From positions 1 to 32,627 of the forward strand of contig JACQXU010000022.1 in NCBI GenBank assembly GCA_016208545.1: DNA of 32,627 nucleotides, read 5' to 3'. Source of the stretch: Candidatus Uhrbacteria bacterium (GTDB lineage: Bacteria; Patescibacteriota; Patescibacteriia; UBA9934; GWF2-40-263). The position numbers and the translations under genes were made by a program. Of this stretch, positions 2,935 through 32,627 are shown one piece after another (the first letter of the stretch is position 1; every line of letters starts with the position of its first letter). The notes under the pieces were generated by a model. That model had not been told where the DNA came from and ran no database searches. It saw nothing but the letters and a program-made list of their open reading frames with translations.

Positions 2935-3528
2935 TTAACTTCCACTTGGAACTTCCAACAACTTCCCTTGTCCGTTTGGATTATATCCGGCTTTAACTTC
3001 GTCGCCGTCTGAATATCCGTCGCCATCTGAATCTGGATTCAAAGGATTGGTTCCATAAACTTCGATCTCTTCGCGATCAAACAGAAAATCACCGTCTGTG
3101 TCTGAACTTGTTGCATTGGTTCCAAATTGAGCTTCTTGCAAATCAGACAGTCCGTCTTTATCTGTGTCAACTTCTATAGCCTCTTCAGCTTCTACTGCCT
3201 CTACAGCTTCTTCAGCTTCTACAGCTTCTTGAGCCGGTTCTTGAGGCGTAACAGGCGTTCTAGAACTCAAAATTCGCCAAGAAATTAAAAATGCAATAAC
3301 GATTACTGTCAAAACTGAAACAACGATGATAATAGTTTTTAGGTTTTGGGTTTTAGGTTTTGGGTGTTGGGTTTTGGGTGTTGGGTTTTGGGTGGAAGGA
3401 GTAGGAGAAGACTGAACTGGCTCCGAAACTAAATGAGTTGGCGGAGCTGTTGGCGGAATCACTTGCGGCGCGGCTTCGTCTGTTTTTGCAAAAATGTCTT
3501 CAGGAGGTTTTTGTAATTCGTCGAACAT
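2935..3528 (-). CDS. Membrane protein with TSP3-like calcium-binding repeats (paralogue 2)
   Basis: TM segment TIIIVVSVLTVIVIAFLISWRIL; DTDKDGLSDLQEAQFGTNATSSDTDGDFLFDREEIEVYGTNPLNPDSDGDGYSDGDEVKAGYNPNGQGKLL. Confidence 0.82.
   Translation of the reverse strand: MFDELQKPPEDIFAKTDEAAPQVIPPTAPPTHLVSEPVQSSPTPSTQNPTPKTQHPKPKTQNLKTIIIVVSVLTVIVIAFLISWRILSSRTPVTPQEPAQEAVEAEEAVEAVEAEEAIEVDTDKDGLSDLQEAQFGTNATSSDTDGDFLFDREEIEVYGTNPLNPDSDGDGYSDGDEVKAGYNPNGQGKLLEVPSGS
3336..3395. repeat. Telomere-like G-rich TTTTGGG/TGTTGGG repeat tract inside a CDS
   Basis: Plus strand GTTTTTAGGTTTTGGGTTTTAGGTTTTGGGTGTTGGGTTTTGGGTGTTGGGTTTTGGGTGG; encodes the linker PTPKTQHPKPKTQNLKT on the minus strand. Confidence 0.75.
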
Positions 3529-3566
3529 AGGTTTTTGGTGTTAGGTTTTGGGTTTTAGGAAAAAAA

Positions 3567-4364
3567 TTAAGGCAATTTTCCAGCGCCGTTTGGATTATAA
3601 CCTGCGGCGATTTCTTGACTGTCGCTATATCCATCTCCGTCAGTATCAGCTTTGTACGGATCAGTTCCGTACAATTTTTCTTGCGTGTTATCCAAATCGT
3701 CAAAATCCGGATCATCAACCAAAATCCATTCTTCCTTACACAATCCAATTCGGTCTTCGTCAATTAATTTCTCACAAACTCGAGAGTCTTGTTTTTGATT
3801 CGCCTCTTTAACGACGATCAAAAATTCACATTCTGATGGATCTTTTCCAAGCGTCGCACAATTTTCAGCAGTAACTGGCTCAAGACCAGAGTGGCATCCT
3901 TGTCGTTTATTCTCGTTTTGTATTTTATCACACAACTTCACATTTTGAGCAGAAACTGCAAGAGCATAATTCACACTGTCTGAACAAAGTCTTTTCCATT
4001 CTTCGTTAACGATATTTTCACAAATCGAGGTATCTTTTTTATCAACTCCAAGTTCCCAAACGCAAGCGTCATAACTTTTGTCTGTTAAGCCTTCGCAAAA
4101 CAAAACATTTCCGGTTTGAGAAGCAAGTTTTTGAGTTTGTTGTTGAGCGCATTTTTCCTTGTCAACCGCACTCTGACAGGTTTGTTCGATTTGAGCGCGT
4201 TGATTTTCAAGTTCCTGCGTTTGCAGAGATGTTTCATTTCTTCCGCTGATAAAACGAACAGCGCCTATCACCAAAAACACAGCAATTAAAACTCCGACTG
4301 CGATAATCGCGACAGGTTTCCAAGAAATTTGTTTTTGTTCAGTTGGATAGTCGGAGAAAGGCAT
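3567..4364 (-). CDS. Membrane protein with paired-Cys repeats and C-terminal TSP3-like repeat (paralogue 3)
   Basis: N-terminal TM (VAIIAVGVLIAVFLVIGAV), about 12 regularly spaced Cys, then DPDFDDLDNTQEKLYGTDPYKADTDGDGYSDSQEIAAGYNPNGAGKLP (C-terminus matches paralogue 2). Confidence 0.8.
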   Translation of the reverse strand: MPFSDYPTEQKQISWKPVAIIAVGVLIAVFLVIGAVRFISGRNETSLQTQELENQRAQIEQTCQSAVDKEKCAQQQTQKLASQTGNVLFCEGLTDKSYDACVWELGVDKKDTSICENIVNEEWKRLCSDSVNYALAVSAQNVKLCDKIQNENKRQGCHSGLEPVTAENCATLGKDPSECEFLIVVKEANQKQDSRVCEKLIDEDRIGLCKEEWILVDDPDFDDLDNTQEKLYGTDPYKADTDGDGYSDSQEIAAGYNPNGAGKLP

Positions 4365-4400: not shown

Positions 4401-7400
4401 TTACTGCGAAGGACAATACTCAAAATTAATGTTAGAAAAATTCATCGTTCCGGTTCCGTTGAAAATTGTTTGAATCGGCATCAAAGTTTGCTTGTTCTGA
4501 CACGCGAATGTTGACGGTAAAGGCAATTCAATATTTTGACCAACAGGAGTGATCGCAGTTTGCGAACTTGATTCTGTTCCCTTTGTCGCAGTAACTGTTG
4601 TTTTTGATTCCAAAACAGATTCGATGATTTTGTTATACATTCCCTTAATACCTTCAGCTGTCGTTGCTTGATACGCATAGTCTCCTTCAAAACAGTCATT
4701 AAGTGCTGACATTGTGTATCCATGGCATTTCATGCTAGACAAATGTTCCATGTAGACAATTTGAGTGGTGTTATTAGATATGACTGCGGAATAAAAAGTG
4801 ATGTCACCAGATTTTATATGATCATAAATCATTCCGTCTTCATAACGAGCTTCGGCAATGCAAGCATCAGGTCCATCATAATTATAATCTTCAGTATTTT
4901 CGTCCGTTTCTGAAGTAAACACCTTAGAATAATCAGTACAGTGGTGATCATATTCTGACGGTGTATTCTCATCAAAATCTATAGGATGGTTTGCTTCGCC
5001 GTCTGCAAGAAGAATTACAAATTTTTTGTTTTCCGAAGGAGACTGTTCATCTAAAATTTGAATTGCTTTTTGAATAGCTTTGCCAGTTAATGTCCATCCA
5101 CCTGTATTGTCCTTATAAGTTCCAATAATACTTTGTAGTATTGTATTATTCCCTGCTTCATTCAATGACAATAAACTGTCGGTGCTTGTTGGATTCATAA
5201 AAAGAACATCGTCTTGAACATTATGAACAGCATCGCCTTTTCCTGCCTCTTGTTCGTCTGGTGTTCCATATCCGTACGAGACTAAACCAATTCTGACTTC
5301 TCCTTCGTTGCCTTGATACGCATTGTACAAGTCGTCTATCGCTTGAATTGCGGATTCCGCGGCAATGTCAATTTTGCGATTTGGAGCAGTGGCGGCTGTT
5401 CCATCTGGAGCATCTTCCATTGTTCCTGTTAAATCCGTCACAAACACAATATCAATGTTTGGTTCAATTACATTTATGTTATCAATATTTGCTGTAATTT
5501 TTGTTCCAACAGAGCAAGCCGGCAAAACCAAAACCGCATTATCTGGCGAGAGTTTTTCTGTGTTGAAATAACTATAAAGATCAACGCTTGGAAGCGGTTG
5601 AGCACCGGAAAGTTCACTTTGCACTAAAATTCCTGTTTTCTTTAGTGAAAACGGACATGCTCCAGTACAATCACTCGCGCAAACAGGCGCAACGCAAACA
5701 CTATCTGCTCCGCAAAGAGTTTTATTTGCTGAACTAGTATAATCTGTTGTATTTTTGTCCGGTGGCTGAAGTGTGCATGGTTTGCCGTTATCTGCTCCGC
5801 CATTGCAAACTCCTGCGTAATGGCACGAATATCCTGATTCGCACGAACTATCAGTTAAAACATCACTTTTTGGACAACTCGCGCCACGTTTTGAATCTCC
5901 ATTATTGTAATCAATGCACCAATACGGCTGGTCGTTCCCATCGCAAAATTCATTTCCATTTATAATTCCGTCGCCGCAATACGAACCAGACAAAGTTTTA
6001 TATTGACACTGCCAATTGCAATAATTGCAAGTGTCGTCGTACGAAGCTGTGCACGGATTTGTGCTAAATGGTCCGACATTCTCTCCGCCATTGTCGCACG
6101 CCTCAACACCACTAAAAACATAATTATCTCCGCAGATATTTTTCTGGCATCCGTTTGTGCAACTATCATTGTTTGAATCATTTCCATCATCACATTTTTC
6201 AGTTCCTTCCACTTTTCCATTTCCGCAAACTTGATCTCCGCCAGAACACGCAGACCAACCAGGCCATGAACAATCATTCTGACAAACGCGAGTTCGAGTA
6301 AGTTCGTAAGTGAAATCGGAACATTCGGCGTTTAAACCGGCACAGTCGGTGTTTACATTGCATTTCTCTCCAACTTCTGTTCCTCCAACACAAACTTTAC
6401 TGTTTCCACATTCTAGTTTTCCAGCTCCTCCTCCGCAGGAATATCCTGTTGGACAATCACTTTGCGTTTCACAAGTTGTTAAATTATCAGTACAAAGTTT
6501 TCCAGCCCACTGTTCACTTCCTCCGTCGCACTGTTCCGGACCATTCACAATTTTGTCTCCGCAAGAAAGTCCCGGCTGTTTGCAGTCATATGTGCAAGTT
6601 TTGGTTGGAGTATTTCCGTATTGTCCGTTTGACGCAACACAAGAATTCAACTTTGCCCAACTTTGCGCACCAAGCGTTGCAAAATTTTCAATTGAACCGC
6701 AATCGCACTCTTCACCGCCTGCCAAATATCCATCACCGCACAAAAATGCTGTTGAAAGTAAACATCCTGTTCCGCAGTGGCCATAAGTTCCGTTTAATTC
6801 TCCGTCATCACAAATTTCATTTCCTTCCAAAACACCATTTCCGCACTCAAATTGAATAAGCGGCGAACCAGCTGTCATTGCCTCTTGCGCTGACTGAAAA
6901 CCTGAACAATCGTCTTTACACGCAACGTTAATGTATTCCGTTGAAACTGTTCCTCCTGACGGAGTCGGACATTTATCAACCAAAACTCCTTGATCCCAAA
7001 CCTTCGCGCATTCTATACTTTGCACTTGTCCCAATTCGCACGTTTCACCAATTCCTGAAACTCCATCGCCGCACACAGCTGAAATTCCCCAACTTGTGCT
7101 GTCAGCGCAGAAAAGTGGATTTGAAACAAATCCTTTCGGAACTGCGGCGAGTCCGCTTAAATACTCCGCAACAACTGTCGCGTCATCAGTTGGAAACTGA
7201 TCAATTGGGAAATTCCACACCGCATCTGCGTATTCAAGTTGAGTAAATAACGTATATTTTTCAGCGCCTTTATTTTGATAACCATAAACGTGCGATCCTT
7301 TTGGACAAACAAATTTCCCTTCCAACCCGTTAAAACAAGTTAAAGGATCAAAACCTTCGCCTTGCGACTTACAACCTTGCCAGAACTCGTCGATCGGATC

Positions 7401-32538: not shown

Positions 32539-32581
32539 TGGTTGCGGGGGTTGGATTTGAACCAACGACCTCAAGGTTATG
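32539..32581 (-). tRNA. 3' exon/half of an initiator-type tRNA-Met(CAT); 5' half not contiguous
   Basis: Minus strand CATAACCTTGAGGTCGTTGGTTCAAATCCAACCCCCGCAACCA: intact T arm, 5-nt variable loop, 3' acceptor CCCCGCA with A at position 72 and encoded CCA. The expected 5' partners CAAGG and TGCGGGG are absent in the adjacent sequence. Confidence 0.85.
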
Positions 32582-32627
32582 CTTACCTACTACAGCTTTC
32601 GCTGCTCCGGAAAACTGGATTTGTGGT
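32582..32627 (-). ncRNA. Putative intron (group I-like) 3' end interrupting the tRNA anticodon loop; truncated by window
   Basis: Minus strand ...GGAGCAGCGAAAGCTGTAGTAGGTAAG|CATAACC: ends in G before the exon, with a CAGC-GAAA-GCTG GNRA-tetraloop hairpin resembling a P9-type stem. Confidence 0.55.

Follow-up and report, generated by a model that had tools for sequence, protein, structure and literature searches.

The DNA analyzed here, a stretch of 32,627 nucleotides that we call the window (G000:C43:1–32627), belongs to a contig of 71,302 bases in a genome of 817 kb. Its end contains, on the minus strand, the 3′ half of a tRNA gene. A sequence-only reading of the window had described this half as intact from CAT to CCA, and CATAACCTTGAGGTCGTTGGTTCAAATCCAACCCCCGCAACCA (32581–32539, minus strand) comprises a CAU anticodon, a complete T arm, the CCCCGCA acceptor strand, A73, and CCA. 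As that reading also held, the sequence upstream of CAT does not complete a tRNA: neither ARAGORN nor Rfam reported a complete tRNA at the locus within the window. The 5′ half is not visible there because the window stops at the edge of a 35-N scaffold gap (C43:32628–32662), which begins immediately after the last base of the window and lies inside the interrupting intron. Extending the contig past position 32627, as the sequence-only reading had suggested, revealed a matching 5′ half about 270 nt upstream of the 3′ half, with a group I intron core between the two. The features of the locus, with the basis for each assignment, are listed below.

32539–32581, minus strand: 3′ exon of tRNA-fMet, from C34-A35-U36 through A73 and the encoded CCA (fold of the joined exons; same-genus genes)
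32582, minus strand: ωG, the last intron nucleotide; the 3′ splice site lies before C34 (38-intron alignment; empty-site comparison)
32582–32627, minus strand: 3′ end of the intron, with P9, P9.1, the 3′ strand of P9.0, and ωG (alignment and covariation with 37 other introns)
32593–32604, minus strand: P9.1 hairpin CAGC-GAAA-GCUG with a GAAA tetraloop (paired in 100% of cells in 38 introns)
32616, minus strand: differing base, A on the window side versus G in the copy across the gap (comparison of the 20-nt overlap)
C43:32628–32848: continuation of the intron past the window, the 35 N included
C43:32882–32849, same orientation as the 3′ half: 5′ exon, CGCGGGGTAGAGCAGTCTGGCAGCTCGCGAGGCT, 34 nt, ending GAGGCT

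The interrupted gene and the scaffold gap

When the two exons were joined, ARAGORN called a 77-nt tRNA-Met(cat) with a complete cloverleaf, a CAU anticodon, and a C1×A72 mismatch. A C1 that is unpaired with A72 is a hallmark of bacterial initiator tRNAs, and the mismatch therefore identifies the joined molecule as an initiator, the identity that had been proposed from the 3′ half. Run in intron mode on the precursor, ARAGORN reported tRNA-Met(cat) carrying an intron of 212 nt that begins at position 35, the first position past the 34-nt 5′ exon. Without intron mode it called nothing on the unspliced gene, which accounts for the absence of the gene from the annotation.

The pairs of the anticodon stem are C-G, G·U, A-U, G-C, and G-C. 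The G·U pair arises from the end of the 5′ exon, ...CGAGGCT; the sequence-only reading had predicted ...CAAGGCT. The run of three consecutive G-C pairs is incomplete (A29-U41), as it also is in the intact genes of the same genus.

The gap is flanked by two copies of a 20-nt sequence, ACCACAAATCC[G/A]GTTTTCCG, that differ at one base. The flanks are probably an assembly overlap that was left unmerged, and the difference between the copies perhaps reflects strain variation. The G allele completes P9 (UCCGG-UUUU-CCGGA), while the A allele leaves one mismatch. Once the gap and the 20-nt overlap are removed, the intron is 212 nt; we infer this length and the sequence of P9 from the overlap and from related introns.

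Within this genome, which is estimated to be 92% complete, this locus is the only DNA similar to an initiator tRNA. Neither the similarity search nor the 30 tRNA matches inspected, of 35 over the cut-off, showed a second tRNA-fMet; an elongator-type tRNA-Met at C43:34380 was among the inspected matches. The interrupted gene is thus the sole initiator tRNA detected in the genome and, provided that the completeness estimate holds, its product must function. Together, the intron and the scaffold gap explain why an initiator tRNA appears to be lacking.

The intron core and its covariation

The sequence-only reading had attributed the interruption to a group I intron. Beyond the gap, the sequence between the tRNA halves matches the group I core model RF00028 with 51.4 bits (E ~1e-12; gathering score, 50). 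The score barely exceeds the cut-off, in part because the scaffold gap cuts off the P9 end. With this match directly upstream of the 3′ half, and with ARAGORN calling tRNA-Met(cat) for the joined exons, chance is excluded as an account of the tRNA halves. We take the intron to be IC3-like by analogy with bacterial tRNA introns, as Rfam gives no subtype. Two details that had been read from the window also hold: the 46 nt from 32627 to 32582 end in G, and the hairpin with the GAAA tetraloop, CAGC-GAAA-GCTG, lies exactly at 32593–32604.

We aligned 38 introns at this site, taking the overlap-joined window copy as the first row. The alignment supports helices P2, P3, P4, P5, P6, P6a, P7, P8, P9.0, P9, and P9.1. 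Standard pairs occupy 95.1% of pair cells compared to 78.2% in shuffled alignments and at most 42% when the structure is slid; as the structure was drawn from the window copy, the slid control is biased towards it, and the stronger evidence comes from pairs changed on both sides (362 cells versus 109 in shuffles). Such changes occur in all four pairs of P9.1 and in four pairs of P3, which is paired in 100% of cells. P7 is likewise 100% paired, but since it is invariant, it contributes no evidence of covariation. The pseudoknot expected of P3 and P7 is present, and all family-invariant core positions are intact in the window copy. The last column is G in 38 of 38 introns, a terminal G having been required by the collection scan described below, although not for relatives of the same order.

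P1 and P10 were read from the sequence. In P1, the 5′ exon GGCU and an intron C pair with the guide GGGCU, forming a U·G wobble; across the 38 introns G2 of the guide is invariant and its GGGC nearly so. In P10, the CAU of the 3′ exon can pair with an AUG that lies just before the guide.

The insertion site and its introns in other bacteria

In tRNA-fMet, the insertion separates U33 from C34. In two congeneric genomes (G001 and G002), the gene at the same locus is uninterrupted; it is 97% identical to the 5′ exon and 100% identical to the 3′ exon, with the two parts abutting exactly. As the neighboring tRNA-Leu(CAA) and tRNA-Met are conserved in both genomes, these genes represent empty orthologous sites. 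Three registers of the intron, which slide by 0–2 nt, give the same spliced product because CA is repeated at both ends. We chose the U33/C34 register since it alone satisfies the U33·G requirement of P1 and places ωG last in the intron. The sequence-only reading, which had considered a junction directly before C34 worth documenting, was correct as to its position, but the site is already widespread: U33/C34 is common to the tRNA-fMet introns of cyanobacteria and many other bacteria.

An intron interrupts the same gene at this site in nine of the 59 near relatives. In six of these (G005, G010, G017, G024, G039, and G056) the intron is 657–713 nt and contains an ORF of ~150 amino acids. The G005 protein matches PDB 2OST, which we take to be I-Ssp6803I, with E 3e-65, and the Pfam family PDDEXK_5 was recovered for both G005 (E 1e-49) and G056 (E 1e-47). 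The relatives' same-site introns thus encode homologs of I-Ssp6803I (PDB 2OST; Pfam PF11645; PD-(D/E)XK), whereas the intron in the window contains no endonuclease ORF and hence no counterpart. The PF11645 profile had no match in this genome, and the control genomes were likewise without a match. In the relatives (L072–L074, L076, L079, and L080), the endonuclease ORF occupies the P1 loop that separates the 5′ splice site from the guide, and its final codons extend over the guide and helix P2.

We also scanned the collection for tRNA-fMet 3′ halves preceded by G instead of U33. This interrupted junction occurs in at least 115 stretches from many phyla. A 5′ half ending in GGCT lies upstream in 68 of 80 fetched stretches, most of which contain the core motif. 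Cyanobacteria, Omnitrophota, Nitrospirota, Planctomycetota, Acidobacteriota, and various CPR lineages are among the hosts of the matches listed. Within the host phylum the same type of pattern, which is strict, is rare: an evenly drawn sample contained it in at least 5 of 380 genomes. The cyanobacterial tRNA-fMet introns recovered by the scan share with the window copy the U33/C34 junction, the GGGC guide, and ωG. In a quick tree of 77 introns, built from a short alignment and containing many weak branches, the window copy falls apart from the other introns of its order. This placement would fit horizontal movement without proving it.

Group I introns in tRNA-fMet have been known in cyanobacteria, namely Synechocystis PCC 6803 and Gloeobacter, since 1994 (Biniszkiewicz et al., 1994; Paquin et al., 1997, both as cited in PMC8450103). 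The intron described here resembles these in its host gene, its insertion in the anticodon loop, and its group I core, but it resides in a Patescibacteria-type bacterium. The Synechocystis intron is 655 nt and carries a 150-amino-acid endonuclease ORF (PMC1995217), unlike the window copy, which has the U33/C34 insertion of the cyanobacterial-type lineage and lacks the ORF that is optional and found in mobile members. Group I introns in CPR tRNAs were mentioned in 2021, in a passage that names neither their sites nor the tRNA isotypes (PMC8172020), and a preprint by Nakagawa et al. (2025), cited by title in PMC12641178, concerns a novel insertion site in Patescibacteria tRNAs.

Proposed splicing and alternative explanations

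We conclude that the sole tRNA-fMet detected in this genome is almost certainly interrupted at U33/C34 by a small group I intron of IC3-like type that would be spliced as follows. The transcript would fold such that the GGCU of the 5′ exon and the guide GGGCU form P1, with U33·G as the wobble. A guanosine bound in P7 would attack after U33, and U33 would then attack after ωG, with the CAU/AUG pairing of P10 assisting. The exons would be ligated to give the mature tRNA and the intron would be released. We infer that splicing would occur both in vitro and in the cell. The endonuclease encoded by same-site relatives would be expected to carry the intron into empty alleles, making introns at this site potentially mobile; the window copy would be the ORF-less form, of ~212 nt. 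If splicing proceeds as proposed, the supply of initiator tRNA in this genome would depend on a ribozyme.

Three other accounts of the locus have to be weighed. As the 3′ ends of tRNA genes often serve as attachment sites and the window alone shows neither a 5′ half nor an RNA family match, the 3′ half could be a tRNA fragment, such as the integration scar of a mobile element. The sequence-only reading had named this as its alternative, to be preferred if the 5′ half or the group I core were missing and an intact tRNA-fMet lay elsewhere. What was found is the reverse: a matching, co-oriented 5′ half ~270 nt upstream, a group I core between the halves, and no second tRNA-fMet in the ~92% complete genome. 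Nine near relatives share the interrupted architecture, and the 20-nt overlap argues against a mis-scaffolded gap that joins unrelated contigs. With the 5′ half and the intron core in place, we regard a scar as ruled out.

It is also highly improbable that the intron is a degenerate remnant that no longer splices, leaving the gene a pseudogene. Although the endonuclease ORF is absent and the A on the window strand breaks one pair of P9, ORF-less copies of ~200–250 nt are common in this intron family, and the family-invariant positions of the core are all intact. Moreover, the exons yield a fold-competent tRNA that is nearly identical to the intact genes of the same genus, and it is the only initiator tRNA detected. 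Slightly less improbable, but still unlikely, is an intron longer than 212 nt, with additional sequence such as an endonuclease gene concealed by the 35 N of the assembly; the introns of relatives do reach 713 nt. However, the gap is flanked by the same 20 nt with a single mismatch, the signature of an unmerged overlap, and the P9 region joined at this overlap aligns end to end with those of relatives. Further, the endonuclease of the relatives precedes the guide, within the P1 loop, and that part of the intron is free of gaps here.

The small intron at U33/C34 is a real and well-supported case of a kind already known, a group I intron in tRNA-fMet. We also favor, with reservations, a broader interpretation in which it belongs to a horizontally moving tRNA-fMet lineage that is driven by I-Ssp6803I-type endonucleases, has spread through many bacterial phyla far outside the cyanobacteria, and leaves some minimal-genome Patescibacteria with a sole initiator tRNA whose supply requires a ribozyme. 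Introns that occupy one site, are distributed patchily across phyla, and sometimes carry an endonuclease offer a tractable case for studying homing across phyla.

Several other features of the window and genome were recorded. Downstream of the tRNA, on the same strand, lies a ParA-like ORF (32458–31685), an arrangement shared by several relatives; a ParB-like ORF is found beyond it (31583–30735). An ORF at 832–1194 contains the segment FVSVSLTDIVTTSYVWSRTIFINTQQNRRQIIVVLPGI twice in tandem and has the appearance of a DNA repeat, not of a gene. Near tRNA-Leu, Rfam gave a weak hit to a miRNA family of plants that was far below the gathering score and was taken as chance. Elsewhere in the genome, the 23S rRNA gene spans ~6 kb (1182–7243 of L203, which is G000:C13:1–13500). 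Two group I introns within it score above the Rfam cut-off (3457–3673 and 4033–4267) and two further matches are weaker (5684–6046 and 6200–6958), in line with the rRNA introns reported in CPR bacteria (PMC11270868).
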